Shown here: piece by piece, positions 9,158-43,011 of the stretch
How the letters are laid out: each line of letters begins with the position of its first letter
Position numbering within the stretch: the stretch's first letter is position 1
DNA from: a virus
Direction: 5' to 3' (one strand)
Virus record (IMG/VR): IMGVR_UViG_3300024259_000062
Location: 1 to 44,842 of that record
Length of the DNA stretch: 44,842 nt
Notes under the pieces: generated by a model
What the model saw: the letters and a program-made list of their open reading frames with translations, nothing else
Told to the model about the DNA's origin: nothing
Database searches by the model: none
Program-made: the position numbers and the translations under genes

Positions 9158-9191
9158 AAGGGACGGGTCGATTGACTGGCCCGTCCCTTTT
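9158..9191 (+). terminator. Intrinsic terminator after acidic paralogue 1
   Basis: Perfect 10-bp stem AAGGGACGGG / CCCGTCCCTT with a 12-nt loop, ending in TTTT. It separates the acidic gene from the FAD enzyme. A TATACT at 9143-9148 just upstream could start transcription through it. Confidence 0.85.
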
Positions 9192-9207
9192 CACAAACGA
9201 GGTCGCA

Positions 9208-10596
9208 ATGCCTAGATTGGTAGTTATTGGTGGAGGTATATCAGGGGCCTCTATGTTCTATCATATGAGGATGAACTATCCTGAATGGGAAGTAATCCTC
9301 TTAGAGAGGGGCAGTGAAGTAGGGGGCATTAATAGGAACATTGAAGTAGAGGGGCTGAGGTTTAGCCTGGGCAGCCGTTACATCTTCGGACTTAATCCGT
9401 TTACCGTAGATACGGTGTTAGAGCTTGCAGGGAGCGATTGCAAGCTTGGTCAGAGCCTTCATTCCGTATTCTATAAGGGAAGGTTCCTAGACTTTCCGGT
9501 CCAGATGAATACTTCAGGACTATCGCTCAGAGAGAGGGTGGAGTGTCTTTGGGGCTTGTTCCGTAGGTCAAACAAGAAGGATGTATGGTCTTTTGAGGAC
9601 TGGGCCATAGCAAAGTTCGGAGAGCCGATTGCGAGGAAGTTCATTCTTAGTCATGTGACTAAATGTTGGAAGGTAGATCCAGGTGAAATTGACTTTACTG
9701 GATCAGCAAAGAAGGTGATGGAGCCGAACGCAAGAGGGATGTTCTGGGGCGGCGTTCGTAGGCCAAAGCCTTTCGCAAACAACGAGTTCCTATATCCGGT
9801 TGGTGGAATAGGGACGATAGTGAATGAGATGATAGCCCGTGCTAAGTCTGGAAATAATATCCAGAAAGCTTGGGCTATTGATAGGACTAACTTTATGGTC
9901 TACGCAGTCGATATGTCGGAGAGAAAGGTTGTATCGACTGAGGGTGAAGAGGTGGAGTATGACGCCTTAGTCTCGACGATACCGATGCCTGGACTTGTAA
10001 ACTTGATTCATAATTCGAACATTGGAGTGCCTCAGGATGTTGTGCTTGCCGGGGAGAAGCTACGGTTTAACTGTATGGCTTCAGTCATGCTTGCCTTTGA
10101 GGGAGATATATTGAATGGACGTGAAGAGCATTTCATCTATGTCCCCGAGAAACGCTACAGATTCAGCCGTGTCTCTATCCCAAGAAATTTTGACCCAAGT
10201 AGTTGCCCGGATGGCCATACATCCCTCCTTGTTGAGATCTCCTTCGGCAAGGAACAGAAGAAGTTATTGTTTCGTGAAGATTACCAACGGGAATTGGCAG
10301 TCAAGATTGTTAGGGATGTTGAGGCTTTATTTCCGTGTGAATGCGGCCTTGGCCGAAAGCTCAAAGGATTTGCTGTCGGAGTCATCGACCCTTCCTACAT
10401 CATAACAGATGAGAATTACCACCCCGCAAGGAATAAGGTGATCGAGTATTTGAGACAGAACGACATCCATATGTTAGGTCGATTCGGGAAATGGGATTGG
10501 AGTCGTATTGAAGACACTATTCCTGAGTCACATGATCTATCTCATCGAATAGGAGGAAAGCCTTGGCTGGCGATGATGGCAACGGGGAGCAGTTGA
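9208..10596 (+). CDS. FAD-dependent oxidoreductase, UDP-galactopyranose-mutase-like
   Basis: 462 aa from ATG 9208 (GAGG upstream). The N-terminal dinucleotide-binding fold is clear: VIGGGISGA with G8, G10, G13, acidic E33 at the end of the second strand, then the second Gly pair VGGINR. Later YDALVSTIPMPGLV is typical of the UDP-galactopyranose mutase / protoporphyrinogen-oxidase-like family, and the length fits. A mutase would supply galactofuranose for sugar transfer, perhaps to alter a surface or modify DNA or protein, but no glycosyltransferase is nearby. Family well supported, substrate not. It is an unusual metabolic gene for a phage. Confidence 0.75.
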   Translation: MPRLVVIGGGISGASMFYHMRMNYPEWEVILLERGSEVGGINRNIEVEGLRFSLGSRYIFGLNPFTVDTVLELAGSDCKLGQSLHSVFYKGRFLDFPVQMNTSGLSLRERVECLWGLFRRSNKKDVWSFEDWAIAKFGEPIARKFILSHVTKCWKVDPGEIDFTGSAKKVMEPNARGMFWGGVRRPKPFANNEFLYPVGGIGTIVNEMIARAKSGNNIQKAWAIDRTNFMVYAVDMSERKVVSTEGEEVEYDALVSTIPMPGLVNLIHNSNIGVPQDVVLAGEKLRFNCMASVMLAFEGDILNGREEHFIYVPEKRYRFSRVSIPRNFDPSSCPDGHTSLLVEISFGKEQKKLLFREDYQRELAVKIVRDVEALFPCECGLGRKLKGFAVGVIDPSYIITDENYHPARNKVIEYLRQNDIHMLGRFGKWDWSRIEDTIPESHDLSHRIGGKPWLAMMATGSS

Positions 10597-10853
10597 GTGA
10601 GAGCCCTGCTCTGAACATCAAGAGGGCAGTTGAAGCAATGACTAACGCTTTAATATTCCAAGCATTAGTCCAACTCAAGAAGGGGTATGAGAAGACAGGC
10701 ATCCAAGAGGAAGGCTTGGTTAGGATAGTCTACGATAGGTTTGCCGAGAATGCTGATATTAGTTTCGGACAGGCCTGTTCAATTTTCTACTATGAAGGCT
10801 CAAGAAGGTTCATGGAACTTCAGAGGAAATCGTCCAAGAAAGGCGGAAAGTGA
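10593..10853 (+). CDS. Hypothetical protein
   Basis: 86 aa. A TTG at 10593 overlapping the previous stop (TTGA), with GGGGAG 3-8 nt upstream, is the preferred start; the frame also opens at TTG 10563. Helical composition with a Lys-rich tail. No family recognised. It ends one base before the ThyX start. Confidence 0.6.
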   Translation: MSESPALNIKRAVEAMTNALIFQALVQLKKGYEKTGIQEEGLVRIVYDRFAENADISFGQACSIFYYEGSRRFMELQRKSSKKGGK

Positions 10854-10854
10854 T

Positions 10855-11730
10855 ATGGCGGGTGAGAGTATAGGACTTCAGATGTCGTCTTCAGAACAAG
10901 CGAATGCCCCGATTACCAATACTCCGATAGTAAAGTTGGTCCACCCACCTAAGCCGGAAGATTGCCTCCGCCAAATAGCGACGATGTGGCTCGCAGCTCA
11001 CCACGTCGATCCGCTTTGGATTGTAGATGGCGGTCGAGCGTTCCCAGGATCATTTGATCCGGATCACGAGCAGATGGATGGTTTGACTCGCGGCGAGATC
11101 GAGAAGATGATCTGGGAAGAGGTTATCCCGATCCCGGCTTGGCAGACGGTGCTGGAGTGTGTCCGGTTCACGTTTGTGATCTATAACCTGAGTCGTCCGG
11201 CCCAGCAGCAGTTGACTCGACAGCGGCTCGGGGTAGGGTTCAACAACAATTCCCTCCGGGTTATCCAGCTGGAGACTTTCGCTAGGGATGGCAGGTATCG
11301 TATGCCGCCAAGATTCAAAGGGACTCCCGGAGAAGCAGTGTATCGCCACTCAATGGAGATGATACAGGGTGACTATAATACGTTGATCAGCTCAGGAGTC
11401 AAGCAGGAAGATGCCCGCGGCATTCTTCCTCAGAATATCCACTCCCCGACGGTGACGATGTTTGCCGACCTGAGGGCCTTGCTTAGCTTTATTCCCAAGA
11501 GACTTTGTTATGAGGCCCAGGATGAGATGAATGAAATGGCTGTGTCATTAAAGCAAGAAGTTGATCACTGGGACCATTGGTTCGGGAATCTTTTGAGCTT
11601 CCCTTGTTCTCGTAACAAGGAATGTGTGATCGGACCCGGTGCTGCTGAGAGGTGTCCACTTCCATATGAGTGGAAGGGCGGAGGGAACAAGGGGATTGTG
11701 ATTACCTCCCATAAGGAGGAAGTTGAGTAA
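10855..11730 (+). CDS. thyX: Divergent ThyX-like flavin-dependent thymidylate synthase
   Basis: 291 aa. ThyX makes dTMP from dUMP using FAD and methylene-tetrahydrofolate. The stretch from VLECVRFTFVIYNLSRPAQQ to FARDGRYRMPPRF aligns by eye with ThyX (fold lead-in, then the signature). The signature is altered: R122-Q-R...NNNS133-L-R135 stands where ThyX has RHRxxSxNxxSxR. The His is Gln, and the Ser/Arg pair is one residue further along. Both arginines and the late Ser-x-Arg remain. It may still be a thymidylate synthase or may act on a modified substrate. ATG 10855 follows AGGCGGAAAG. Confidence 0.72.
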   Translation: MAGESIGLQMSSSEQANAPITNTPIVKLVHPPKPEDCLRQIATMWLAAHHVDPLWIVDGGRAFPGSFDPDHEQMDGLTRGEIEKMIWEEVIPIPAWQTVLECVRFTFVIYNLSRPAQQQLTRQRLGVGFNNNSLRVIQLETFARDGRYRMPPRFKGTPGEAVYRHSMEMIQGDYNTLISSGVKQEDARGILPQNIHSPTVTMFADLRALLSFIPKRLCYEAQDEMNEMAVSLKQEVDHWDHWFGNLLSFPCSRNKECVIGPGAAERCPLPYEWKGGGNKGIVITSHKEEVE

Positions 11731-28656: not shown

Positions 28657-29013
28657 ATGGCAACCGAGACAAAGAAGCAGATCGTCCCGCAGATCGAAGA
28701 GAAGCTCGGAATGATGGCGCTCCCGTATCATAACGCCAGGTCGCCCTTCGCCCGCAGCGAGGGACGGAACGTCAGCTGGCAGGTTCTCCAGGACGCGGGG
28801 GCGAAGGGAATCACCTCCGCAGATTGGGCCGAGGAACTCGGCAAGCGGGGCATTCGGAACCCCGTCTCATACGTCCGGTTCGTCCAGAACGCGAAGCGGC
28901 GGGTAGTGGTGGAAAAGAAGGACAACGGAAATTGGGTGGCGGTCGCGCCCAAGAAGCCGAGGGCCAAGAAGGAAGTCAAGCCCGAGGAGGCCATCGAGCC
29001 CCAGGCAGAGTAG
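28657..29013 (+). CDS. Winged-helix-like protein, paralogue 3 (no acidic tract)
   Basis: 118 aa. It lacks the Asp/Glu tract but keeps the shared domain: SPFARSEGRNVSWQVLQDAG, ITSADWAEELGKRG, YVRFVQNAKRRVVVEKKDNGNWVAV, and the basic tail. Codon use is GC-rich like the other two. Own promoter (copy 7) and own intrinsic terminator. The repeated aromatic NxxW...LQDAG core suggests a small nucleic-acid-binding fold. Confidence 0.78.
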   Translation: MATETKKQIVPQIEEKLGMMALPYHNARSPFARSEGRNVSWQVLQDAGAKGITSADWAEELGKRGIRNPVSYVRFVQNAKRRVVVEKKDNGNWVAVAPKKPRAKKEVKPEEAIEPQAE

Positions 29014-29473: not shown

Positions 29474-29608
29474 ATGAGACGAGTCCTTAAGGATGTTGTG
29501 GACTACGACCCAGAAATTCGCCGGTGTGTACCGGTAAGCGATGTGGTCGCCTTGTGGAGAAGAATCCTAAGGTGGTGGGAACGAACCTTTGCGGGGAGGA
29601 CGATATGA
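29474..29608 (+). CDS. Very small hypothetical protein
   Basis: 44 aa, GAGGTAGTGTG upstream of ATG 29474, with ATGA coupling to the next gene. Val/Arg-rich (VSDVVALWRRILRWWERTF). No family recognised. Confidence 0.5.
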   Translation: MRRVLKDVVDYDPEIRRCVPVSDVVALWRRILRWWERTFAGRTI

Positions 29609-29748
29609 TGGACTTACTTAATATGAGTAGTCTTGACTGGGCTATCGTGTTCTTCTTCGTATGCTTTATTGTCGGGATGGTTATCGTAGTCATCGGAGAT
29701 CTGAGGGCAATGAGGATGACAGCTAAGCGTCACAACTGGCGCGGGTAG
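29605..29748 (+). CDS. Single-pass membrane micropeptide
   Basis: 47 aa from ATG 29605, 5 nt after GGGGAGG. One long hydrophobic helix (LDWAIVFFFVCFIVGMVIVV) and a basic C-terminus, so probably N-out/C-in. Last gene before the non-coding region that leads to the TG/CA-free island. Confidence 0.6.
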   Translation: MMDLLNMSSLDWAIVFFFVCFIVGMVIVVIGDLRAMRMTAKRHNWRG

Positions 29749-29771
29749 TCCTTATCTCAGTCAACTAATAG

Positions 29772-29799
29772 ACCTGGCCAACCAGTCACTTGGCCAGGT
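29772..29799 (+). other. Perfect hairpin
   Basis: ACCTGGCCAA / TTGGCCAGGT, 10-bp perfect stem with an 8-nt loop, 23 bp after the last small gene. No T run, so a transcript-end stabiliser or protein-binding site is as likely as a terminator. Confidence 0.6.
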
Positions 29800-29963
29800 A
29801 AGGTAATTTCAGTCAGAGCGCAGGTGATGCTGTTTGGTGACCCCTAATCTAATTGTTGGTGTTTGCTGCCTAGAGAGAATGCCTTGCCCTATATCGTATG
29901 TTTGTTTGTGTGGTTCCAGTCAGTCAATTGTCTTTAGGCGCAGCACCAACCTCGATCTCCCTA

Positions 29964-30417
29964 AAGAGAAAAGGATCTTTTTCTCTTAAAGCTATAACCC
30001 TAGCGTTAGAGAAAAATCTTCCGAGAAAGAATTTCTCTTACCTTAAGGTTATAGGGAAGGCGTTTCCCTATAAGGAAGGAAGTTCCTATCTTAAGGCGAA
30101 ACTAGACGAAACTAATATCGACGAAAACGTCGAATAAATTTCGACGAAAACGTCGAGAGCTAAGTCTCTATTTCGCTTAAGGTTAAAGCGATCCTAAACT
30201 CGATTCGACGAAAACGTCGCTAGACTTTCGACTATATCGTCGAATATCCTTAAGGTATATCGCTTCGTTATAACGCTATCGGTAGGGACTATAACGCTAC
30301 CGTTAAGGTAAAGTAAGTCCCTATTTCGCTTAAGGTTAGGAAGGAAAAGGTAGAGAAAAACGTCTTTTTTATCGTTTCGTTATAACGCTACCGATATACC
30401 TTAAGGCTATAACGAAA
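29964..30417 (+). repeat. Chain of hairpins inside the TG/CA-free island
   Basis: Successive inverted repeats: AAGAGAAAA/TTTTCTCTT (29,964-29,987); TTATAGGGAA/TTCCCTATAA (30,049-30,073); three copies of TCGACG-AAAA-CGTCG (30,118, 30,141, 30,205) and a variant TCGAC/GTCGA (30,228-30,243); TAGGGACT/AGTCCCTA (30,283-30,323); TTTCGTTATA/TATAACGAAA (30,375-30,417). CTTAAGGT-like and TATAACGCTACCG-like words recur between them. No open frame of interest. It looks like structured RNA or an array of protein-binding sites. Confidence 0.75.
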
Positions 30418-30747
30418 TAGCTCGAAAGAAAATCGAAACTTTTTTAACTTTAGGTTAAATAGAGACTTAGGGCGGTTTTCTCGAAAGGCTAAATCCTAGC
30501 GGCCCGGTAATCGCTATACCTTATCGCGTAGTCGAGAACGAAACGAAACGCTAACGAAAGGGGAAACGAAACGAGTAAAAGGAATCTAGGGAATAGCGGA
30601 AACCGAAAGAGTCGGATAAACCGCTAGACTAGATCGGAAACGAGCGAAAGCGAAAGGTTTCCTAAAAGGTCCGATACCTACCGAAAAGGTATTACTTCGA
30701 TTTTCGGAATCTACCGTTTACCGTAGTATAACGTAAGGGGAAACGCT

Positions 30748-31404
30748 ATTAATACCGATACCGTAGTAAATCCGGAAACGGATTCGATAGATACCGATAC
30801 CGACCTTACGGCCGACCTTACGGCCGATCTCGATACGGAAGCCGTAGACGATACGGAAGCCGTAGACGATACGGAAGCCGTAGACGATACGGAAGCCGTA
30901 GACGATACGACGGCCGACGTTAAGCCGACGGTAGAACGATACGACGGCGAGATTAAATACGCGTCGGACTTTTCGCTATCGGCGAAAGTCGCCGCCGCCT
31001 CTCGTCCGGGGGCGGTAAAACGCGTCCGGATAGGCCTACTCGATTCCGGCGGATTTACTTCGCCGGATAGGGCGGAATCGTTCCGACTCGCTTTCGCGCT
31101 TTCGGTTTCCGACGCCTTCGCGAAAAGCGAAACGGCGAAGGCGAAATTCCCGAAAGTTCTCGCCGTTAGAGAGCGACTCGCCGCCGCCGGTATCGCCGTC
31201 GGAAAGGGCTATACGCGTTCCGAGCTTTCCGCCGCCGCCGTCGCGCTTAACTACGGTCGGAAGTATTCCGCTTTCGTCGCCTTCCGACCGTCGGGAACGC
31301 GATACGCCGTAGTCGAGTCGAACGATAGGCTTAAGCTATTCGTCGTCGCCGAAAACGGGAAGGCTTATCCCGCGATACCGAAAGCGGAAAAGGTCGAGAA
31401 GTAG
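30748..31404 (+). CDS. TG/CA-free gene with ATT start, unknown function
   Basis: 218 codons, open from 30,727. No conventional start can exist; ATT 30,748 lies 7 nt after AAGGGG (30,735-30,740), a normal Shine-Dalgarno distance, and AUU is a known rare start (E. coli infC). The N-terminus is acidic, with DLTA repeats and four DTEAVD repeats; the rest is a basic alpha/beta-like domain (VKRVRIGLLDSGGF, FPKVLAVRERLAAAGIAVGKG, YSAFVAFRPSGTRYAVVE). It contains no Cys, Trp, His, Gln or internal Met. Asp, Asn and Tyr codons end in T before A and in C before G at every such junction. A perfect terminator follows. Acidic tract plus compact domain recalls the family at 8113, but I see no clear sequence match. 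Not recognised. Confidence 0.7.
   Translation: MNTDTVVNPETDSIDTDTDLTADLTADLDTEAVDDTEAVDDTEAVDDTEAVDDTTADVKPTVERYDGEIKYASDFSLSAKVAAASRPGAVKRVRIGLLDSGGFTSPDRAESFRLAFALSVSDAFAKSETAKAKFPKVLAVRERLAAAGIAVGKGYTRSELSAAAVALNYGRKYSAFVAFRPSGTRYAVVESNDRLKLFVVAENGKAYPAIPKAEKVEK
30832..30903 (+). repeat. Four perfect 18-bp tandem repeats
   Basis: GATACGGAAGCCGTAGAC repeated at 30,832, 30,850, 30,868 and 30,886, coding DTEAVD each time. A shorter duplication GACCTTACGGCC x2 lies at 30,802-30,825. Identical copies indicate recent expansion, yet they still contain no TG/CA. Confidence 0.95.
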
Positions 31405-31412
31405 ATAAAACT

Positions 31413-31442
31413 AGAGCCCCTCGAAAGAGGGGCTCTTTTTTT
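31413..31442 (+). terminator. Intrinsic terminator of the TG/CA-free gene
   Basis: Perfect 10-bp stem AGAGCCCCTC / GAGGGGCTCT with a GAAA tetraloop and seven T, nine bases after the stop codon. A near-ideal terminator, which supports that the ATT gene is transcribed. Confidence 0.93.
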
Positions 31443-31497
31443 ACCCTAACGCTAAAGGTATAGGGAAAGGGATTCCTCTAACGCTACCGTTAGGGTA
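31442..31497 (+). other. Long-range hairpin TACCCTAACG / CGTTAGGGTA
   Basis: Perfect 10-bp arms at 31,442-31,451 and 31,488-31,497 enclose GGTATAGGGAAAGGGATTCC. Still inside the TG/CA-free island, beyond the terminator. Confidence 0.6.
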
Positions 31498-31513
31498 GGG
31501 AGGGGTAGGGGGT

Positions 31514-31534
31514 AAAAGACTAAAAAGTCTTTTT
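31514..31534 (+). terminator. Second, AT-rich terminator at the island edge
   Basis: AAAAGACT / AGTCTTTT 8-bp stem with an AAAA loop and continuing T-rich DNA. It lies about 10 bases before the island ends; on the - strand it would also stop transcripts leaving the reverse operon. Confidence 0.6.
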
Positions 31535-31544
31535 CTCTTTTCGC

Positions 31545-31772
31545 ACTTGATCGTGATACATACACGCCAAATTTTTTGAGTGATTTCCACCACCCCCGAC
31601 GCTCCGCGCCTGCGACCTGCGCTAAACGACCTGCGCCAAAGACTCCGCACTGGGAACTAGGAGATTACCGAACTCACACCGCAGAGATTACCGAACTCAC
31701 ACCGCAGAGATTACAGAATTACCAAACTCAGGGAATTAACCGACTGACTGAGGGGATCGTCCGAGGGCTTAT
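31545..31772. other. Spacer with 23-bp tandem direct repeat
   Basis: GAGATTACCGAACTCACACC plus GCA is present twice back to back (31,661-31,683 and 31,684-31,706) and begins a third time. CGACCTGCGC words repeat near 31,610-31,640. A TTG-started frame covers it (31,576-31,776), but the 23-bp unit shifts frame each time and the composition is poor, so I treat it as non-coding. The region separates the island from the convergent reverse operon. Confidence 0.55.
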
Positions 31773-32048
31773 TTAACAACCGGGATGGTTGTTCAATTGA
31801 TCTTTGAGGGATTGCGGAAGGAAATACTCACCATCCGGGCGAACGGTGAGAACAGGCAACCGAGGAAAGCCATGCTGATACTGCCGAATTGCTTCGTTGC
31901 CTGCGTGGTGAGATTTCTCGTTTATGTGGATGGCTCGATCTTGCGGTAGGCCGTAAAGATGACAGAGGGTATATGAGCTGATCCAATGTAAATCTCCGTC
32001 ATTGCGGGATCTGACTTGGCCTCCTACTACGATGGCGAGCTTGGTCAT
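31773..32048 (-). CDS. Hypothetical protein, last gene of reverse operon
   Basis: 91 aa. Starts with KLAIVVGGQVRSR, like the first strand of a Rossmann-type domain, then HINEKSHHAGNEAIRQY with several His. An AACAACC/GGTTGTT hairpin spans its stop. ATGA coupling to the upstream gene. No family recognised. Confidence 0.58.
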   Translation of the reverse strand: MTKLAIVVGGQVRSRNDGDLHWISSYTLCHLYGLPQDRAIHINEKSHHAGNEAIRQYQHGFPRLPVLTVRPDGEYFLPQSLKDQLNNHPGC

Positions 32049-32257
32049 TTGAGCCTCTCTAGTTCACTGAGGATATTATTGGTTGATTGACGTATGGCGG
32101 CGGTATGTATCTCGGTTGATTGAAGCTCCATAAAGGTTTTGTCTGTAAACTCTATCAAGGCGCTTGAATCATTACACGTGATCTTCTTGATGGTACAACC
32201 TTCGAGTTGCCCTACTAATATCGGACAGATGTAAATGACGTAACGTCTTGGAGTCAT
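32045..32257 (-). CDS. Hypothetical protein
   Basis: 70 aa, ATGA overlap at both ends. Beta-like N-terminus (RRYVIYICPILVGQLEGC) and helical C-terminus (IRQSTNNILSELERLK). No family recognised. Confidence 0.56.
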   Translation of the reverse strand: MTPRRYVIYICPILVGQLEGCTIKKITCNDSSALIEFTDKTFMELQSTEIHTAAIRQSTNNILSELERLK

Positions 32258-32487
32258 TTGATGTCCCTATCCAATACGAAGTTAGCGAAGTCGAGATGGG
32301 CCCACTCGTCGGTAGGCTCCATAGGGATTGGAGGTGCCTCGTGGTTTGGTGGATCCTCTCTCCATAGACGAACGACCCAATAGGGGGAATGCGTTCCGTA
32401 AAGTGGGGTAGCAGAAAACAAGAGTGTCTTTCGACGGACTAGATATAGCTTATGAGGAGGCGGTTGCTGTTCGGATATTGGGGTCAT
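32254..32487 (-). CDS. Hypothetical protein
   Basis: 77 aa from the ATG at 32,487 that overlaps the upstream stop; a longer in-frame start at 32,514 lies inside the acetyltransferase gene. Pro/Trp-rich (SPYWVVRLWREDPPNHEAPP). No family recognised. Confidence 0.56.
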   Translation of the reverse strand: MTPISEQQPPPHKLYLVRRKTLLFSATPLYGTHSPYWVVRLWREDPPNHEAPPIPMEPTDEWAHLDFANFVLDRDIK

Positions 32488-32867
32488 TTGAGTTTCCTTT
32501 TGCGAAACATCCATGAGTGCTTTAGTTCTTTGAATCCATAACTGACTCCGAACTTCTTGCCCCCTGTGTGGGACAATTGGTCTGTTACTAGATGATGATC
32601 CGGATATGCGTGACGTAGAGTATCGAGGATAGCAGTAGCAATGCCTTTCCTTTTGTAGCGCGGGAACACAACCAAGTAGAGGATGTTTATCTTGGTATTG
32701 TTATCTTGAAAATTATAATAGCATAAACCTACTGGAACTGGCCCTGTGTTAACAAGATAGGCCTCAAGAGAGTATGTGCCTGGGATAGTTCCTTGGCACC
32801 AATAAACGTTGAGAGCCTTATTATCTTTGGTCTTCTGCTCGTAGATGATAGGCGCTGTATGGGTCAC
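32484..32867 (-). CDS. GNAT-family N-acetyltransferase
   Basis: 127 aa. The acetyl-CoA binding loop is clear: LYLVVFPRYKRKGIATAIL matches the (Q/R)xxGx(G/A) motif A on its strand, followed by a helix and a terminal YGFKELKHSWMF block like motif B. The length suits a single GNAT domain. Substrate unknown; phage acetyltransferases can modify host proteins or antibiotics. ATGA coupling to both neighbours. Confidence 0.75.
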   Translation of the reverse strand: MTHTAPIIYEQKTKDNKALNVYWCQGTIPGTYSLEAYLVNTGPVPVGLCYYNFQDNNTKINILYLVVFPRYKRKGIATAILDTLRHAYPDHHLVTDQLSHTGGKKFGVSYGFKELKHSWMFRKRKLK

Positions 32868-33064
32868 TTGATTTCCTCAAAGAGATCGAGTTGGAGGACT
32901 TGCTTAGGGAGAGGACATCTGGGGTGAGTGGCCCCTACGCACCGCATGTTGCTAATAACTGGCCCGTTGAACTTTTTACAGCACCGCCATTTGATTTTGG
33001 TTCGCCAAATCTTAGGACGGTAGTAGTATAGCTCAGAGCAGTTATAGCCGTTGAGGAAGGTCAT
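32864..33064 (-). CDS. Cys-rich small protein
   Basis: 66 aa, basic, with WRCCKKF, MRCVGATHPRCPLP and an early Cys that could form a zinc site. ATGA coupling. No family recognised. Confidence 0.55.
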   Translation of the reverse strand: MTFLNGYNCSELYYYRPKIWRTKIKWRCCKKFNGPVISNMRCVGATHPRCPLPKQVLQLDLFEEIK

Positions 33065-33309
33065 TCTGTCCTCTCTAGGATGCCGAACTGGATATGGAAG
33101 TCGCTACGACTATGAACAATTTGTGAGACGCTAGTATTGAGAGCAACTCCGCACATCGCAGCGAATCTTGGCCCCAGCTGGGTGTCGGTATACTCGTTGT
33201 TTAGCTCGACTCTGCTATCCATGACGACCGCGTTTGCTTGAAGGCCAACGCCATCATCGCGCTTGATGGTGAGGACTCCATCTACGAAGTGAACCTCTGT
33301 TATGTTCAT
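33061..33309 (-). CDS. Hypothetical protein
   Basis: 82 aa. VHFVDGVLTIKRDDG at the start and a polar remainder. ATGA overlaps both sides. No family recognised. Confidence 0.55.
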   Translation of the reverse strand: MNITEVHFVDGVLTIKRDDGVGLQANAVVMDSRVELNNEYTDTQLGPRFAAMCGVALNTSVSQIVHSRSDFHIQFGILERTE

Positions 33310-33539
33310 GATAGTTGTATCCTGTCTGGTTTAGACTTCGGGTTGATATCTACTTGTAGAGCTTCGAACATCTTAAAGGTTAGCGGGTATATCTCGATAA
33401 GTGACGAGTCGTTGAGGTCGGGCTGACAGGAGTCCCACACACCCTGCGACGCTAGGGTTATAGTAACGGGAGGATGGCCATACTTCTCGTTGAACTCGTA
33501 GATGAGGTTCATTACGTCGGCGAAGTATGATTGGCTCAC
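33306..33539 (-). CDS. Hypothetical protein
   Basis: 77 aa from GTG 33,539 (GTGA overlap with the 52-aa gene upstream). Aromatic helical start (QSYFADVMNLIYEFNEKYG). No family recognised. Confidence 0.55.
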   Translation of the reverse strand: MSQSYFADVMNLIYEFNEKYGHPPVTITLASQGVWDSCQPDLNDSSLIEIYPLTFKMFEALQVDINPKSKPDRIQLS

Positions 33540-33694
33540 ATCGCCTCCAGTTTCTTACACTGGTTTGGATATCTGGTGTACATCGTTTGCGCGAACTTGG
33601 CTTCTTCATCTGACGCTGGCTCCCCGGCTTTGGAACGGGCGATGAGTTTGGTAAAGCGGGACTTGAGATTGATCGGCATCTTTTGCTCTTTCAC
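33536..33694 (-). CDS. Very small basic protein
   Basis: 52 aa from GTG 33,694, 9 nt after AAAGGAG. Lys/Arg-rich helix (PINLKSRFTKLIARSKAGEP) and CKKLEAM end. Fills the gap between two ATGA-coupled blocks. No family recognised. Confidence 0.55.
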   Translation of the reverse strand: MKEQKMPINLKSRFTKLIARSKAGEPASDEEAKFAQTMYTRYPNQCKKLEAM

Positions 33695-33713
33695 TTTGGT
33701 AGCTCCTTTAGGT

Positions 33714-33986
33714 TCATATGTCGTAGTCTCCAGACATTAAGCCAATGCCCAAATCGAGTCCTTTGCTCTCAAGGGCACTGGCGATAGCTCGTGGGATGTC
33801 CTTCTTGTAATCGCTGAGTTCGTCGTGCTTGTCCGTTTCAAGGTATTCGATTGGGACGCATATCCTGACGTCAACGAAGAATACGTTGTCGCCACCGTAG
33901 CGGGACCACGGACCCCATTGCCCTCTTTCTACTGCCTTCCCATTTTGGAAGGTTATGGCTTTGACGTCACTCCACGGTTTGCTCAC
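33714..33986 (-). CDS. Hypothetical protein
   Basis: 90 aa. WGPWSRYGGDNVFFVDVRICVPIEYLE suggests a beta-rich fold. ATGA overlap with the upstream gene. No family recognised. Confidence 0.56.
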   Translation of the reverse strand: MSKPWSDVKAITFQNGKAVERGQWGPWSRYGGDNVFFVDVRICVPIEYLETDKHDELSDYKKDIPRAIASALESKGLDLGIGLMSGDYDI

Positions 33987-34228
33987 CGTCGCCCCCTGGG
34001 TTTGCAGATGATCTCACTCCAACCGCAGTCGGTCATATGGAGGGCCTTGTAACTTTCAATCTTTTCAAGCCATTCACAGAGCAAGTAGCCTTCTCGTCGA
34101 GCAATCTGACCCTTCTCATCAAAGAGTGGATTATTCAAAGCAGATGTCCATGCTTCTTGCCTAGTCCTACCGATGCCAACTACTCTGCCCTTTGGACTCT
34201 TGACTACCCAAAACGTAATTGCTGTCAC
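33983..34228 (-). CDS. Hypothetical protein
   Basis: 81 aa. ITFWVVKSPKGRVVGIGRTRQEAWTSA resembles a small beta-beta-alpha unit seen in proteins that process sequence-tagged ends, but no call is made. ATGA coupling. Confidence 0.56.
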   Translation of the reverse strand: MTAITFWVVKSPKGRVVGIGRTRQEAWTSALNNPLFDEKGQIARREGYLLCEWLEKIESYKALHMTDCGWSEIICKPRGRR

Positions 34229-34413
34229 GGGACGCTGTCTCCTAAATCGGTGTTAAGGGTTTTGAGCCATCTCAACTGGCCCGGACTTAGCGAGTCTGGA
34301 TGTCTTTTGGATATTGAACAGAGGAATTTATAAGCCTTGTAATAGTAGTCAGTCTCGTCTTTGATAAGAACGCGCTTCCAAGCAGCATCCGCGAGAGTGT
34401 CTGGGTGGATCAT
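34225..34413 (-). CDS. Hypothetical helical protein
   Basis: 62 aa from ATG 34,413 (ATGA with the upstream stop); the frame is open further upstream but there it is inside another gene. Tyr/Lys-rich helices (KDETDYYYKAYKFLCSISK). No family recognised. Confidence 0.54.
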   Translation of the reverse strand: MIHPDTLADAAWKRVLIKDETDYYYKAYKFLCSISKRHPDSLSPGQLRWLKTLNTDLGDSVP

Positions 34414-34628
34414 TTGATCACCTGGACGTCGAAGATTGGTCGTAGGTTGATTATCGGTCCGAGTGTTCTGAGATGAGGAGGAAGCATATTCCATATGATC
34501 TCTCTGTTCTTTGGTTCGTTGTAGTTCTCTGTGACATCAGCAGGGAGGTCACATTTGAATTTAACAGCATACTCTACTAGCTGGTGATTATAGAGTGCTG
34601 AAACGAGAAAGCTGATTTCTGGGCTCAT
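34410..34628 (-). CDS. Hypothetical protein
   Basis: 72 aa from ATG 34,628 (ATGA). ISFLVSALYNHQLVEYAVKFKC at the start. No family recognised. Confidence 0.54.
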   Translation of the reverse strand: MSPEISFLVSALYNHQLVEYAVKFKCDLPADVTENYNEPKNREIIWNMLPPHLRTLGPIINLRPIFDVQVIK

Positions 34629-34888
34629 CCTTCCTCCAGACATTGGCGGTGGTGTTCTTGGAATTCTATTGACCGTATGAGCTTGGCACACCCTTCGTGC
34701 CTATCAGTTCCTGTCTCTGACATATCCATTGGCCTGTTCTCGCACGCTACTGCTGCTACTTCGAGTGTTTTCAATATTAAGCCTTCAATATACTCGAATA
34801 GAGCATCGTAGCATAGCTCGTTGGCAGGATCTTCTGCTATGCGTATTCTTGATATGATTTCACGACATTGTTCTGGTGTTAACTTCAT
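34625..34888 (-). CDS. Hypothetical helical protein
   Basis: 87 aa, all helical (EQCREIISRIRIAED, LFEYIEGLILKTLEVAAVAC). ATGA coupling at both ends. No family recognised. Confidence 0.56.
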   Translation of the reverse strand: MKLTPEQCREIISRIRIAEDPANELCYDALFEYIEGLILKTLEVAAVACENRPMDMSETGTDRHEGCAKLIRSIEFQEHHRQCLEEG

Positions 34889-35115
34889 GTGAATTTCCTT
34901 TTGTTAAGTAGTGACTCGTGGACTAAGACTTGCCTGTTCTTATATTGTTTGACCCAGTAACGGTGAGTCGGGACAGGCTCTGTAGTAAGCTCTATCGGTG
35001 CTTCCGTTAGACATATGATAGGGCCGAGATCAGGCCTGTGTACAACGATAGTATAGTCAGTATCTACCGATAGTAGTCTCCCATCGCAAGGACCGCCTAC
35101 GCATTGGCAAATCAT
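34885..35115 (-). CDS. Hypothetical protein
   Basis: 76 aa from the internal ATG at 35,115 (ATGA with the upstream stop). ICQCVGGPCDGRLLSVD is a recurrent start of small phage proteins of unknown role that have a Cys-x-Gly-Gly-Pro-x-Asp-Gly motif. The rest is beta-rich. Confidence 0.58.
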   Translation of the reverse strand: MICQCVGGPCDGRLLSVDTDYTIVVHRPDLGPIICLTEAPIELTTEPVPTHRYWVKQYKNRQVLVHESLLNKRKFT

Positions 35116-35456
35116 CGCATTGTCCAAGTATAGTTGCCATCGACGTTAATCTGGAACTTGGCAGGACCGTGCGCAATCATTCCAAGAGGGAAGCCGCCAA
35201 GAAGTGGCCCCGGCTTGAGTTTGCTATCATATGAGAACGACACCTCTTTAGCGTCGGCAACGCCCAAGATGAACTTGGTTCCGTCGCTCATTTGGATAGT
35301 AATTCTTGTCGGCTTGATTAATCTCTCAGCTGGTGGCTTCCTCAATTCCTCCTGCTCCCTGAAATGTCTGAGTATTTTGCGTTGGGCTGCGTCAGCAGTT
35401 CTACTGTTAGAATGCCTGAGTTCATGTAGTGCGTCGTTTAATTGGATGATTGTCAT
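35112..35456 (-). CDS. Hypothetical protein
   Basis: 114 aa, TAGGAGAC before ATG 35,456. Basic helical N-terminal half (LHELRHSNSRTADAAQRKILRHFREQ) and beta-like C-terminal half (RITIQMSDGTKFILGVAD). No family recognised. Confidence 0.58.
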   Translation of the reverse strand: MTIIQLNDALHELRHSNSRTADAAQRKILRHFREQEELRKPPAERLIKPTRITIQMSDGTKFILGVADAKEVSFSYDSKLKPGPLLGGFPLGMIAHGPAKFQINVDGNYTWTMR

Positions 35457-35463
35457 GCGTCTC

Positions 35464-35556
35464 CTACATATATAGTTGGGTTGTGTAGCTTTGATTAATT
35501 GACCAGATCCATGCTAGTAGGACTAGCCAGAAGAGAAGCCATTCAAATTGTGTCAT
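35464..35556 (-). CDS. Single-pass membrane micropeptide
   Basis: 30 aa, ATG 5 nt after GGAGG. A hydrophobic Trp-rich helix (FEWLLFWLVLLAWIW) then a short polar end. Below the size usually annotated, but the ribosome binding site and packing are good. Confidence 0.5.
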   Translation of the reverse strand: MTQFEWLLFWLVLLAWIWSINQSYTTQLYM

Positions 35557-35557
35557 C

Positions 35558-35635
35558 TTATCCTCCAGCCAGAGCGGCTACGGCGAAAGTAATAAGGTAT
35601 AGTAGCATCAATCCTTTGCCCTGCTGTTCTGTCAT
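35558..35635 (-). CDS. Single-pass membrane micropeptide
   Basis: 25 aa, TGATG overlap with the upstream stop: QQGKGLMLLYLITFAVAALAGG. Together with the next gene it forms a pair of tiny membrane peptides, and its end codes for that gene's GGAGG. Confidence 0.45.
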   Translation of the reverse strand: MTEQQGKGLMLLYLITFAVAALAGG

Positions 35636-35997
35636 CACAGCATCACCTCATCTTCATCAGGTTGCCTATAGAATGGAATACGCTTTTCTTTCCGGATCTT
35701 GATGGCCTGATGGCCTGCTGCTATCACTATAAGTGCTGAGTCGTAATCAGCACGAGTTATCTGGAGGTGTCCTTCGCAATCTTCAATTTCATATTTGTCA
35801 CCATTATCCAGAGTTAAGTGGAACGACTTTCGATTCTTCGCAAAACGAGCTTCGCTGCGTCTGGTTGGCGGCGGTTGTCTATTCCTTTCACGACGTCCTT
35901 TATTGTTTTCAAGGCGTCCTTTATTGTTTTCAAGGCGCCTTTTCTTGGCCTCTCTGTCCTCTTTGATCTTGACGTCACGATATTCCCAGATCTCCAT
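35635..35997 (-). CDS. Basic protein with internal RLENNKG repeat, first gene of reverse operon
   Basis: 120 aa; ATG follows AAAGGTAAGG. Strongly charged N-terminal half with KRRLENNKG repeated, matching a 20-bp direct repeat in the DNA near 35,900-35,940. The C-terminal half (SFHLTLDNGDKYEIEDCEGHLQITR) looks like a small beta domain. No family recognised. Confidence 0.58.
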   Translation of the reverse strand: MEIWEYRDVKIKEDREAKKRRLENNKGRLENNKGRRERNRQPPPTRRSEARFAKNRKSFHLTLDNGDKYEIEDCEGHLQITRADYDSALIVIAAGHQAIKIRKEKRIPFYRQPDEDEVML

Positions 35998-36044
35998 AAA
36001 CCTTACCTTTCTGAAATAACAGGATTTTCTTTATAGTCTAGTAG

Positions 36045-36073
36045 ATTATACAGCCTGATAGGGGCTGAAAGAA
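36045..36073 (-). promoter_or_regulatory. Probable promoter of the reverse operon
   Basis: On the - strand: TTCTTT, 17 nt, TATAAT (36,050-36,045) in GGCTGTATAATCTA, the same GGCTGTATAAT as at 6785-6795. It lies about 50 nt before the ATG at 35,997. The -35 is poor. Confidence 0.5.
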
Positions 36074-36241
36074 AAGGGCCAAGCTGTAAAAGCCTTGACC
36101 CTTCCTGGAGGTCCGTCAACCGCGCCCGTTTTTCGCGGTAAAGTAGTATACAAAGTTGTAGGGCGTGTAACGGTGCTAGTCAAAAACCATGGTATTCTAA
36201 TAGGTAACCCATTCACTTACCCCTGATAAGGAGTGGCTCAA
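36074..36241. promoter_or_regulatory. Divergent intergenic region
   Basis: AAGGGcCAAG / CTTGaCCCTT imperfect hairpin (36,085-36,114) between the diverging units, a GTAGTATACAAAG box near 36,145, and ATGGTATTCTAAT near 36,190, which may drive the late genes. Ends in TAAGGAG before ATG 36,242. No gene seen. Confidence 0.4.
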
Positions 36242-36652
36242 ATGTTAAATCAAAGACAGATTAAAGACCGCAAGCAAGAACTGGTTCGCATGAACAAGGA
36301 CTATCTTATTGAAGAGCTTATCACTGCAGAGGATCAGCTTGCCCGCAAGGACAACTTGATAGCAGATGATACTGATCGGCTTGTAGCACTCAGAGGCAAG
36401 ATACGGCATGACCAGAGAATCGTAGTGTCTCAAAAGAAGCGTAAAGGCCAGATGGATAAGATAGCATGGAAACGCTGGAAGGAGTTTACCAAAATACAGA
36501 TCTGGATAAACATCCTTACAGCAATACCGAATATATTTGGCGCTGCAGCTACTGGGGAGTTTACTTGGTTTATGGTAGGACAGGTAGTGATGAATGCTAT
36601 CTTTGGTCCTATGGTATTTTATCTCCAGAAGAAGGCTGAACACTACGGGTAG
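36242..36652 (+). CDS. Coiled-coil membrane protein
   Basis: 136 aa from ATG 36242, 8 nt after AAGGAG; GTG 36233 is too close. N-terminal charged coiled coil, then two hydrophobic segments (INILTAIPNIFGAAATG and FMVGQVVMNAIFGPMVFYL). First gene of the late block; might be a holin-like or packaging-site membrane protein. No family recognised. Confidence 0.55.
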   Translation: MLNQRQIKDRKQELVRMNKDYLIEELITAEDQLARKDNLIADDTDRLVALRGKIRHDQRIVVSQKKRKGQMDKIAWKRWKEFTKIQIWINILTAIPNIFGAAATGEFTWFMVGQVVMNAIFGPMVFYLQKKAEHYG

Positions 36653-36692
36653 ATGGTGTATCTAAAGGATAGACATTTACCCAGGAGATCAG

Positions 36693-38510
36693 ATGGCAAG
36701 CTTGACAACGCTCAAGAAAAAGAGAAGTAAGAGAGTTGATCCCAATGCTCTTATGCGGGGTGAACTCTCTAAACACTTCGGCCTTAACGTCGAGGCAAAG
36801 TTCGACATCGGCACAGAGTCTGAGGCTAAGACTTTGATTGCCGAGCAGGACGAGATATGGGCTGAGCTTCCGGTATCCACTGAAGTTTTCTTCAGGGATT
36901 GGATACGAGAGCCTATGTATCCGATCCAGCAGGAGTTGTGTGATGCTGTCCTTGGGACTACTCCTATAGAGTGGCCTAGAGACTATGAGGAGGCATTTGC
37001 TCTATGGGGGAAGGGCTCCGGTAAGGATAGGACGTCTGCTAAGATGTGTGTTTACCAAGGATACCGCTTGATGTGTATGCGAGATCCTCACGCATTCTTT
37101 AAGCAGAGTCAGATTGACATCGCCAATATGTCGAGGAACTCTCGGCAGGCCAAGAAGGTATACTTCAATAACCTTAAGGAAGTTGTGCGGAGATGTCTTG
37201 ATCCCTCTACCAAGAAGAACTGGTTTGAAGAGAGAGGGGTTGATCTTCGGGAGCAGAAGGATATTCAGTCAGCCGAGATCCGGTTGTGTGGCGCCCATAA
37301 CGGCGTTCATCATATAGAGCAGGATATAACCTGTCACTCGTTGGACTCGGAGCAGAATACGGGTGAAGGGTTTAACTTGTTCTTCTCACTTCTAGATGAG
37401 CTTGGGGACTTCGCAGTAGATAATGCGATTGAGCTTTACGAGGCTATCACAGAGACAACTGTCTCTCGATATGAGGGGTATGGTAAGGTTTGTGCTATAT
37501 CCTTTATGTATAACAAGAATGATGGAATGCAGATCTTGATGGCCCAGGCAAGCGGAGATCCCAAAGTATTTGTTTCAGGTCCTCATACGACATGGGATGT
37601 TAATCTTGGACGAAAAAAGCAATCCTTTGCGAGACATTTTAAGAGAAACCCAGTCAGGAGCAGACGAGTATATGAGTGTAAAGTTGACTCAAAGCGATCT
37701 GGGCTCATCAAGCTCAGAAGTATTGTTGAGCGCATCTTCAACAACGGCGACGTTGCCAATCCAGTATCAGGCGGGTCGCCTGTGGTTGGATACTATCCTG
37801 AAATCCCAACCTCGACGCTTACCCTTAGTGACCTTAGGTTTGTCGAGGCATTCAAGCCGAACAGCGGGTCTTGTTACGCTGTCCATGTTGACCTAGCTAA
37901 AGGGAAGCAGAAGGGTGACTCAGTAGGATTCTGTATGGCCCATCCTATGAGAATGAAGGGCTATATAGATGAGGCTATGAAGAAACTTTGGATCCAGATG
38001 GGCCATGTAGCTCCTGATGCCGAGGAAATCTCTAAGGGAGTGATATTCGATCTGCTTCTGGCTATCCGCGGCCCTGATGCTTCTCAAGAGGTTAGGCTGG
38101 CAGAAGTCCGGCAGTTGATTTATCGCCTTAAGTTCAAGCTAGGGTTCAATATTATCAAAGTAACGATGGATGGGTATCAATCGGCTGATACAATACAGGA
38201 GCTTGAGTCACGAGGTATCCCAACAGAACTGTTATCGGTCGATAGAACCTCAGATCCTTACGAATCGCTTGTGGATCTAGCCTACCAGGGTCTTGCAAAG
38301 GCTTATCCGCATCTTGTCGCCCTAAGAGAGTTAGATGAGGTCGATAACGATGAGAAGACAGGCAAGATAGACCACCCTAAGTTGTCTTTGGCCCGTATGG
38401 CCGAGGAAGGCTTTGATAAGGGCAGTAAGGATGTGTCAGATTCTATGGCTGGAGCCGCCTACACCTGTATTAAGGATATTCCGATGGATTCAGGCATCTT
38501 TTTCGGTTAG
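36693..38510 (+). CDS. terL: Terminase large subunit
   Basis: 605 aa. It packages DNA into the prohead with an N-terminal ATPase and a C-terminal RNase-H-fold nuclease. Walker A GKGSGKD is at residues 106-112, in the unusual 'LWGKGSGKDRT' form also found in other phage terminases. Walker B LLDELGD has D235-E236. Nuclease acids are visible at VHVDLAKGKQKGDS, KVTMDGYQS and KGSKDVSDSMAGA. AGGAG is weak before ATG 36693. The neighbours (portal, protease, capsid) confirm the role. Confidence 0.93.
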   Translation: MASLTTLKKKRSKRVDPNALMRGELSKHFGLNVEAKFDIGTESEAKTLIAEQDEIWAELPVSTEVFFRDWIREPMYPIQQELCDAVLGTTPIEWPRDYEEAFALWGKGSGKDRTSAKMCVYQGYRLMCMRDPHAFFKQSQIDIANMSRNSRQAKKVYFNNLKEVVRRCLDPSTKKNWFEERGVDLREQKDIQSAEIRLCGAHNGVHHIEQDITCHSLDSEQNTGEGFNLFFSLLDELGDFAVDNAIELYEAITETTVSRYEGYGKVCAISFMYNKNDGMQILMAQASGDPKVFVSGPHTTWDVNLGRKKQSFARHFKRNPVRSRRVYECKVDSKRSGLIKLRSIVERIFNNGDVANPVSGGSPVVGYYPEIPTSTLTLSDLRFVEAFKPNSGSCYAVHVDLAKGKQKGDSVGFCMAHPMRMKGYIDEAMKKLWIQMGHVAPDAEEISKGVIFDLLLAIRGPDASQEVRLAEVRQLIYRLKFKLGFNIIKVTMDGYQSADTIQELESRGIPTELLSVDRTSDPYESLVDLAYQGLAKAYPHLVALRELDEVDNDEKTGKIDHPKLSLARMAEEGFDKGSKDVSDSMAGAAYTCIKDIPMDSGIFFG

Positions 38511-38521
38511 GAGTCAAGAAT

Positions 38522-38959
38522 ATGGAAGAAGTAACTGATGGAAGCGCAGTTTTGAATGCGGCAAAGGAAATAGAGAAGATTCAGGCTGGTTTGGCCGATG
38601 AACAGGACAAGAAGTCCAAGAAAAAGTCCAAAGAGGCCGTGAAAGAGCCTAGTTGGATGGCTAGATACCGGGAAAACAGGTATTTTCATCGGTTTTGGGA
38701 CTATTTGACTACAAAATGGGCTGTTTCTCGCAAGAATTGGCTCAACTTACCGGGTTTTGCGGCATTATTCACAAATTTACTCAGTATTTTCACGGTTACA
38801 ATGCTGGCTCTGGCAATGTATTATAGCGTAGAGCATCTCAAAAAAGGATCTGATTTTACGCTTATAGTTGCTGGGGCAATCTTGATAGGCGTGCTAGGCT
38901 GGGTTAACTCAAGGATTGGTGATGGCCAGACTACGAATGAAGAAAACGTCAGTAAATAA
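38522..38959 (+). CDS. Two-transmembrane protein
   Basis: 145 aa. Lys-rich N-terminus, then two hydrophobic helices (FAALFTNLLSIFTVTMLALAMYY and FTLIVAGAILIGVLGWV). Sits between terminase and portal. Possibly a membrane-associated morphogenesis or lysis protein; no family recognised. Confidence 0.58.
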   Translation: MEEVTDGSAVLNAAKEIEKIQAGLADEQDKKSKKKSKEAVKEPSWMARYRENRYFHRFWDYLTTKWAVSRKNWLNLPGFAALFTNLLSIFTVTMLALAMYYSVEHLKKGSDFTLIVAGAILIGVLGWVNSRIGDGQTTNEENVSK

Positions 38960-39122
38960 GAATCCAGGGCGGGTTCGTAGTCAAGCAGCCCAGAGGCTAT
39001 CTTCTGTTAAGTCTAGTGCTAGCAAAAAGATGGGAATAGTGAAGTCTAGGGCTATGGCTGGTGTCGGTAAGGTTGCCTCAAGGGCGCGCTCAGGCGCGGC
39101 TACGAAATTGGCTGGTAAGTAA
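38937..39122 (+). CDS. Small basic protein
   Basis: 61 aa from ATG 38937, overlapping the previous gene by 23 bp. Very Lys/Arg/Ala/Ser-rich with SVKSSASKKMGIVKSRAM and ASRARSGAATKLAGK, histone-tail-like. May bind DNA in the head. TAATG overlap with the next gene. Confidence 0.52.
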   Translation: MKKTSVNKNPGRVRSQAAQRLSSVKSSASKKMGIVKSRAMAGVGKVASRARSGAATKLAGK

Positions 39123-39268
39123 TGGCTCTTTCAACGGCTACTTTTGATTCGTTTATCGCGATTCCTTTGAATCGCAAACGCATACTGCCGGCTGTAAGGA
39201 TTCTGAAAAATGGGCAGCGACGGACCAACCCTATCAGGAAATCTGATAGGCCGACGAAGGCAAACTGA
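39122..39268 (+). CDS. Very small basic protein
   Basis: 48 aa, start overlapping the previous stop by one base. Basic C-terminal half (RILKNGQRRTNPIRKSDRP). No family recognised. Confidence 0.5.
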   Translation: MALSTATFDSFIAIPLNRKRILPAVRILKNGQRRTNPIRKSDRPTKAN

Positions 39269-39269
39269 A

Positions 39270-39641
39270 GTGAACGGTAGAAACGGGACTACCGCAAGAA
39301 CATGGATTACGTTTGCTATTATGGTAGCAGCAGCTAGTGCTGCTTCTGCGGTATTTGTATTTGCCCAAATCGCATCCCACACAGAGAAAGAGCACACTGG
39401 TCTTTACAAGCCTCAGTTCAAGGGCGATTCTGTTCAGCTGTATGTAGAAAGAGTGAAGGATGGTGTAGAGGATGGCGCGAGGCGGTTGGCTCTGTCTGTA
39501 AAGGAGCATAATAACGAACAAGTGAAGCAGTTGACAAAGTTACTTGAGGCCTCTTTGCTTAAGCAAGATGAGTTGATGAAGTCTCTACATCGTATAGAGG
39601 TTGATGTAGCCAAACTAAAGATGAAAGCAGGGATCGAATGA
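39270..39641 (+). CDS. Membrane-anchored coiled-coil protein
   Basis: 123 aa from GTG 39270 (ATG 39210 overlaps the previous gene by 59 bp). One transmembrane helix (WITFAIMVAAASAASAVFVF), then a charged helical domain (VKQLTKLLEASLLKQDELMKSLHRIEVDVAKLK). Resembles an i-spanin or a bitopic lysis accessory, but position and sequence do not settle it. ATGA coupling to the portal gene. Confidence 0.5.
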   Translation: MNGRNGTTARTWITFAIMVAAASAASAVFVFAQIASHTEKEHTGLYKPQFKGDSVQLYVERVKDGVEDGARRLALSVKEHNNEQVKQLTKLLEASLLKQDELMKSLHRIEVDVAKLKMKAGIE

Positions 39642-41158: not shown

Positions 41159-41226
41159 TTCAACCCTCCTAGTTTGATCTAATTGAAACCTGAAACCCTT
41201 GCTTGTATACTGGACTGTGAGGCAAA

Positions 41227-42384: not shown

Positions 42385-42411
42385 TCCCAGGTTGTAAAAG
42401 GAGGTGAAACC

Positions 42412-43011
42412 GTGACTGAGCAGGAAAAAGCTAACCTCACCAAGTCACTCGGTGAAATGATCTCCAAGGCAATTACGACTGCTGCTCCTGAGAAGGAAGA
42501 GAAGAAGGACGAGCAGACGGATGTCGCCGAGATCACCAAGGCGGTGACTGAAGGTGTCTTGACCCAGCTGCAGGCAAATCCAGTCTTTAAGGCTCTGGAG
42601 GGAGTCCAGAAGACTGAGGAGCCTGACGAGCAGGCCGAGATGAAGAAGTATGTGCGTCGGACGGTCCGCAAGGCTGTCGCTGATGCCCTGGAGACGGCAT
42701 TCCCGGTGATCATCGAGGGCGTGAAGAAGTCGGTCATGGAGATGTTCGGTGGAGAAGATTCCATCAAGAAGGTCAATATGATCGGATCGAAGCTGCAGGT
42801 CGTGTCCAAGAAGAAGGGCAAGGCCCCGGTGGAGGATGTGGACGAGGACGACGATGAGGATGAGGACGATGGCGACGATGAGCCCGTCCAGAAGAAGAAG
42901 CGCTTCAAGAAGCGCGGCGAAGAGGATTCCAGCGGCGGGTTCGGCAAGAAGGCTTCGCTCAAGCAGCTTGACAAGGGGCTCGGAACTCGTGCCCGCGGTG
43001 CTCTGAAATAA
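42412..43011 (+). CDS. Scaffold-like head protein
   Basis: 199 aa from GTG 42412 with AGGAGG 7 nt upstream. Charged, helical, low complexity: Glu/Lys-rich start, an Asp-rich patch (VDEDDDEDEDDGDDE) and a Lys/Arg-rich end. It sits between protease and capsid, the usual scaffold position. Strong GC-rich codon bias like the capsid gene suggests high expression. Inferred from position and composition only. Confidence 0.62.
   Translation: MTEQEKANLTKSLGEMISKAITTAAPEKEEKKDEQTDVAEITKAVTEGVLTQLQANPVFKALEGVQKTEEPDEQAEMKKYVRRTVRKAVADALETAFPVIIEGVKKSVMEMFGGEDSIKKVNMIGSKLQVVSKKKGKAPVEDVDEDDDEDEDDGDDEPVQKKKRFKKRGEEDSSGGFGKKASLKQLDKGLGTRARGALK

Follow-up and report, generated by a model that had tools for sequence, protein, structure and literature searches.

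Why should 1.6 kb of phage DNA hold not a single TG or CA step when the DNA around it carries both at normal density? The window (the whole stretch analysed, a 44,842-base IMG/VR virus record) spans about half the length of its relatives' genomes, which run to roughly 90 kb, and the record is that of a tailed phage (portal, HK97-type capsid, prohead protease, a weak terminase match, SbcCD and primase). A sequence-only reading had claimed that no TG or CA lies between the CA at 29,947 and the CA at 31,544, and this proved exact on recount: both steps are absent, on both strands, between bounding CA steps at 29,947-29,948 and 31,544-31,545, leaving a TG/CA gap of 1,597. The second-longest such gap in the 44.8-kb window is 42 bp, and the longest in 200 zero-order simulated runs of 44.8 kb, with the island's own composition, is 97 bp. 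Where about 200 sites had been expected, the computed figure is 191.7 (outside density 0.120 per base), giving a Poisson log10P(0) of -83.

The void is confined to one dinucleotide pair and to one place. TA and CG steps stay frequent inside the island, as had been claimed (obs/exp 1.36 and 2.05), and outside it TG and CA stand at 1.03 and 0.90. Avoidance of TG/CA over the whole genome, of the classical restriction-site kind, was not found, the outside densities being normal. Both edges are abrupt, which agrees with the sequence-only reading, and the 150 bp at the left lie at the 99th percentile of TG/CA density; a TG/CA-rich flank (99.5th percentile) also borders the island in the relative L005/G001. 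No other dinucleotide shows anything comparable in the window. Counts over the phage and its relatives confirmed the void, and in 24 related genomes nothing comparable was found for other forbidden dinucleotides. The window also contains 527 bp without TA (8132-8659), derived from Asp/Glu-rich repeats (GAC/GAG/GAT codons); this stretch has a coding-repeat cause, whereas the TG/CA void does not.

The void spans the non-coding DNA at 29,949-30,747, an open reading frame, its terminator and about 100 TG-free bases 3' of the terminator, bearing out the claim that coding and non-coding DNA obey one rule (Table 1). Folded computationally as RNA, the non-coding part has an MFE of -254.6, against -201.9 (sd 7.7) for shuffles (z -6.8); the relative gives a computed z of -2.35, and Rfam returned sub-threshold matches only. 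Inverted repeats at the island ends are strong in the near relative G001 (38-nt; 54 vs a shuffled maximum of 23), weak in the window, and not beyond chance in the more distant G010 and G014 (see below), arguing that they do not define the element. A search of the island for a transposase or recombinase (Pfam/PHROG, E 0.001) found none. No promoter was identified in the window island, where a TTGACA box is impossible under the void.

Table 1. Positions of the island, its parts and the candidate modification genes in the window
Feature	Position	Strand	Basis
TG/CA-rich left flank (TTTCAGTCAG..., CCAGTCAGTCAA)	29797..29947	.	99th percentile TG/CA density
TG/CA-free island	29949..31543	.	dinucleotide recount and expectation
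Non-coding part, CTTAAGG-type palindromes and CGACGAAAACGTCG hairpins	29950..30730	+	RNA folding vs shuffles
Left end inverted-repeat segment (AAAGAGAAAAGGATCTTTTT..., TAACCCTAGCGTTAGAG)	29963..30016	+	score 28 vs shuffled maximum 24, weak
Shine-Dalgarno-like AAGGGG, 7 nt before the probable start	30735..30740	+	read in sequence
Island gene P0001, 218 aa, probable ATT start	30748..31404	+	ORF, homology to relative
18-bp tandem repeat encoding DTEAVD repeats	30831..30909	+	repeat search
Intrinsic terminator: 10-bp GC-rich stem, GAAA loop, T run	31413..31443	+	sequence
Right end inverted-repeat segment, partner of the left one	31473..31540	-	same pairing analysis
UDP-galactopyranose-mutase-like FAD enzyme, candidate modification-cassette part	9172..10596	+	co-occurrence only
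Divergent ThyX beside the UDP-galactopyranose-mutase-like gene	10741..11730	+	same pairing in G001, G010, G014, G007

The rule leaves its mark on the island gene, P0001. Translation probably begins at the ATT at 30,748, because ATG, GTG, TTG and CTG are all impossible without TG. The protein contains no Met, Cys, Trp, His or Gln, where 22 such residues would be expected, and in the relative's homologue the initial Met is the only residue of these five kinds. P0001 consists of an acidic repeat N-terminus and a conserved C-terminal 149 aa. At E 0.001 no Pfam or PHROG family was assigned to the island proteins, nor did they match a PDB entry or a known fold, the one PDB hit of an island protein (a WD-40 protein, E 1e-4; 0 stretches) having been set aside as composition. 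Two AlphaFold runs gave, at low confidence, a helical core followed by a terminal beta-hairpin, from which one might guess at a winged-helix-like factor. The window also encodes a paralogous small-protein family (28657-29013, 14650-15390 and 8113-9117), two members of which are fused to long acidic tracts; the copy at 28,657 has a 63% identical homologue in G001, on the opposite strand. Kinship of P0001 with this family was considered, and comparison showed no relation.

Homologous islands occur in other metagenomes. A terminase search retrieved three IMG/VR contigs (L005/G001, L006 and L007) with terminases 82% identical to that of the window; outside the island the three are about 99.9% identical to one another. 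The IMG/VR datasets with contigs of these phages include 3300025131, 3300002518, 3300037634 and 3300040801. Each has an island upstream of the terminase, matching the place of the island in the window. The L005 island measures 1,083 bp (7,198-8,280), and its single TG is the ATG of the island gene; the L006 island has one extra, non-coding TG, at a position that reads AAG, ATG and ATA across the three contigs. The island proteins of the window and these relatives align at 51% identity across 149 aa (E about 1e-44). At the DNA level, however, blastn detects no match inside the island, which argues that the void was maintained while the DNA turned over. These islands are independent and strongly diverged, and their genes, ribosome-binding sites and terminators are intact, which excludes the artefact that the sequence-only reading had allowed for; an assembly artefact or a synthetic or watermark sequence, which has nothing in its favour beyond the strangeness of the segment, is of negligible probability.

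Several smaller observations concern the same group. Among L005, L006 and L007, the island differs about 5 times more than its flanks (8/1,159 vs 20/15,293 sites), and there is a 21-bp length difference at the gene end. A 4.4-kb contig, L008 (IMGVR_UViG_3300024243_000725), has a terminase fragment 100% identical to that of the window over 375 aa; judged from this sequence it is probably the same phage in another sample, with the island outside the part covered. Among their small early ORFs, the window and G001 each have one for a protein with a response-regulator receiver domain (PF00072) and one for a protein resembling RNase H.

In the distant relative L064/G010 (terminase 33% identical), a mostly coding island of about 1.33 kb (973-2,300 of L064) keeps 11 TG/CA, of which 6 lie in three TTGACA boxes, 3 in ATG starts and 2 elsewhere. 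These boxes belong to three promoters, and nowhere else in the 89.7-kb genome does a perfect TTGACA-(16-18)-TATAAT promoter occur. The largest gene product is unrelated to P0001, and such unrelated island genes argue that the rule is tied to the location rather than to a particular gene family. CG obs/exp is 0.12 in the G010 genome and 1.5 in its island (G010 17,417-18,640), and because a CG-rich island thus sits in a CG-poor genome, former TG/CA must have gone both ways. The CpG/TpG balance of this island is opposite to that of its own genome. About 1 kb upstream of it, at 15,480-16,400, lies a non-coding field of some 900 bp of CCATGA/CATGAC-type repeats, with a TG/CA obs/exp of 1.32 and few AG/CT and CG steps; the apparent AG/CT poverty of the region at 15.4-16.4 kb is explained by this CATG-rich repeat field.

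G014 (terminase 38% identical) has a 2.2-2.5-kb island of two genes, each behind a near-perfect promoter. TG/CA stands at 0.42 of expectation; TTGA and TTGC are not depleted, ATG, CTG, GTG, TGT, TGG and GAG are at about 0.2-0.27 of expectation, and some 4-mers, e.g. CTAG and GAAG, are missing. G014 follows a different rule, longer, more complex and more relaxed than that of the TG/CA void, and avoidance is limited to the dinucleotide in the window (G000), G001 and G010. The two G014 genes share a near-identical leader (14,519-14,620 and 15,333-15,430) containing GTTCTTTGAAAATCG, which resembles the boxA-type antitermination element of rRNA leaders.

Beyond these phages the search was negative. 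No such island was found in 20 other related records. The island protein or its profile, used as a query, returned only the three near-identical contigs and nothing in GTDB genomes or INPHARED, and the window DNA at 29,500-32,100 and 30,000-44,842 gave no phage match. The shared 14-mer TCGCTTAAGGTTAA, searched over all viral contigs, led only to the known islands, and among the viral loci fetched with it (n=100, 0.86 Mb) a gap >79 bp occurred only in the three known island relatives. Fecal phage contigs with a UDP-galactopyranose-mutase-like (UGM-like) gene had no island. Searches of open full texts found no description of a natural kilobase-scale segment, spanning coding as well as non-coding DNA, from which one dinucleotide is entirely missing in an ordinary genome, and the phenomenon is apparently undescribed.

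The force behind the void acts at the DNA level, because the rule holds on both strands, in coding and non-coding DNA and past the terminator. Strand symmetry had been taken to fit selection, or some process, that acts on DNA and not only on a single RNA, and the divergent relatives with non-homologous island genes strengthen that case. Each TG/CA site carries a cost, and there is no absolute bar; in the relatives the survivors lie almost only at ATG and TTGACA. Of the causes that the sequence-only reading proposed, escape from a TG/CA-dependent nuclease or modifier stands as the leading class of candidates. Hiding from translation start is disfavoured, since the relatives keep ATG and non-coding DNA also obeys the rule. 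A deaminase is disfavoured as well: the dinucleotides of the island look like those of the outside process once TG/CA is forbidden, TA and CG both being raised, and start codons and -35 boxes keep TG/CA. RIP and deaminase scars share the loss of CA/TG with the island but differ from it, since it has no CA-to-TA excess (directional CA-to-TA conversion was sought and not found), CG is doubled and essential TG/CA are retained. Long-lasting selection is preferred over such a scar.

The reading that we favour, at a probability of roughly 0.4, is that the island is a real, selected small transcription unit kept free of TG/CA because something in the infected cell acts there; the agent would be a phage-carried DNA modification, and the island would stay unmarked for host RNA polymerase. 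The modification would target TG/CA, at the T or G in TG or at the opposite A or C, and might be made by a cassette of the UGM-like enzyme and ThyX. The bulk of the genome would then be marked and, marked DNA being a poor template, unmodified host RNA polymerase would read early the one to three small genes of the unmarked island, which are probably host-takeover or transcription factors. A related proposal, that these are clear zones from which the lineage purges the target step of its own new non-methyltransferase hypermodification so that immediate-early genes remain readable by naive host RNA polymerase, is tentative and rather doubtful.

Precedents exist for parts of this scheme. Modified T in a TG/TC context is known in phages M6, ViI and phi W-14, whose DNA-directed process resembles the one proposed here in having a TG (and TC) dinucleotide context (PMC6449724). 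Bulky major-groove modifications typically block bacterial RNA polymerase (PMC11550810). The perfect promoters of the G010 island are what a unit read by the host polymerase would show, and the strong sigma70 promoters of the G010 and G014 islands, together with the TG-rich left flank, count in favour of modification. Counting against it, TTGACA boxes keep TG/CA, G014 follows a different rule, and the first 50 kb of M6, a phage with modification in TG/TC, hold no island (the longest TG/CA gap in bases 1-50,000 of 59,446 is 79 bp).

The candidate cassette was singled out by co-occurrence. UGM-like and ThyX genes are adjacent in all four island phages (the window, G001, G010 and G014) and in the island-less G007; for G014 the UGM match is a weak one, at E 8e-5 with a C-terminal motif in addition. 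UGM has no match in 16 further relatives (one of them, G003, is a fragment of G001 type), no island turned up in the 19 scanned genomes that lack the cassette, and a search for further UGM-carrying phages found none. An island is thus present in 4/5 genomes with the cassette vs 0/19 without it, a nominal Fisher value of about 5e-4 that is post hoc and confounded by kinship. The FAD enzyme was considered as a thymidine-hypermodification enzyme, and comparison with PDB shows it to be UDP-galactopyranose-mutase-like; for this reason hypermodification is weakened to something that we infer. Several points weigh against the modification reading: G007 combines the cassette with the lack of an island, UGM and glycosyltransferases could serve a glycan and not DNA modification, and among the enzymes sought none of known TG specificity came up. 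The 5hmdU DNA kinase (HMUDK_hel, PF18723), a domain that M6, ViI and phi W-14 possess, had no match in 11 genomes, with the control set equally empty, and a TGT/DpdA-like enzyme (PF01702) was found in 0/11 genomes, with controls 14/14 positive. DNA methyltransferases (N6/N4, D12 and C5 types; PF01555, PF02086 and PF00145; controls positive) are absent from the island phages over the roughly half genome of the window record and about 90 kb each of G001, G010 and G014; PF01555 occurs only in the island-less G013. A T7-like RNA polymerase had no match, and its control was equally empty.

Much of this site-avoidance evidence would serve equally for a TG/CA-directed nuclease or transcription blocker, of phage or host origin, with the island as its own resistant zone whose encoded factor is still made while the rest is shut off or shredded. 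Near-zero tolerance fits harm at each site, the strong promoters of the G010 and G014 islands would suit such a zone, and the phage also encodes SbcCD together with a protein of PD-(D/E)XK or resolvase-like type. However, the other 43 kb, with their normal TG/CA density, would be struck unless protected, which leads back to modification; the G010 island tolerates 11 sites, and we know of no candidate nuclease with dinucleotide specificity. We consider this explanation unlikely. TG/CA could instead be the minimal step for an abundant phage DNA-binding protein (silencer or nucleoid type) or for primase, so that coating or priming has to be kept off the island. CTG is the preferred site of E. coli primase, hairpins abound in the non-coding part, the phage encodes its paralogous small proteins near acidic tracts, and the core of P0001 is predicted, at low confidence, to have helices and then a beta-hairpin as in winged-helix proteins. 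A protein or primer site normally exceeds two bases, though, and partial reduction would do; the G010 island is mostly coding and has no end inverted repeat, and P0001 is without a fold match, all of which makes binding or priming distinctly improbable.

A localised mutator might destroy TG/CA in the island, with selection retaining only essential sites; survival at ATG and -35 boxes, the heightened island variability among 99.9%-identical relatives and the AAG/ATG/ATA position all point that way. Against it, TG/CA went to both TA and CG, as in an unchanged process conditioned on no TG/CA, the island of the CG-poor G010 is CG-rich, few recent island differences involve TG/CA, and the sharp edges would require targeting, so that a mutator has only a slim chance of being right. 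Prospects are similarly slim for the idea that the segment was recently imported from a replicon or satellite which follows the rule over its whole length, with the phage only a carrier. Such an origin would accord with a discrete unit that has its own terminator, with the strong end repeats in G001 and with a G010 island unlike its host genome, but homologous islands sit upstream of the terminase in the window and G001 despite deep divergence, there is no transposase, and no other TG-free locus was found by island protein, profile or 14-mer in viral contigs or by profile in bacterial genomes.

Several known systems resemble the island in part. T5 first-step-transfer DNA lacks EcoRI sites, and restriction-site avoidance in general is alike in that a region survives or acts early without the recognition sequence of a DNA-directed enzyme; in the island, by contrast, the avoided word is two bases, the stretch is 1.6 kb with non-coding DNA included, the rest of the genome is normal, and the cost is a start codon and five amino acids. 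Phage T4 has a modified-cytosine genome, and its Alc protein shuts off transcription on unmodified DNA. There too, base identity or modification decides which DNA is transcribed in the infected cell, but all cytosines are modified and no small dinucleotide-free region is kept; the nuclease or shut-off alternative would be a sequence-based analogue of T4 Alc or endonuclease shut-off. Phage morons, accessory genes that sit between operons and carry a promoter and terminator of their own, are similar as one to three small orphan genes with their own terminator between gene blocks, and the G010 (perfect) and G014 (near-perfect) islands have their own sigma70 promoters, but morons are not known to obey a dinucleotide rule.

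The void points to some biochemical activity in infected bacteria whose target is the two-base step TG/CA. P0001, a conserved gene that has no normal start codon and whose product lacks Met, Cys, Trp, His and Gln, is an extreme natural example of how a protein evolves when its DNA has to obey such a rule. The island also gives a way to test how a phage whose DNA is modified gets its transcription under way when the host polymerase is unadapted. If the modification reading is true, such islands would be sequence-readable footprints of unknown DNA modifications in uncultured phages, which could be mined without an isolate.
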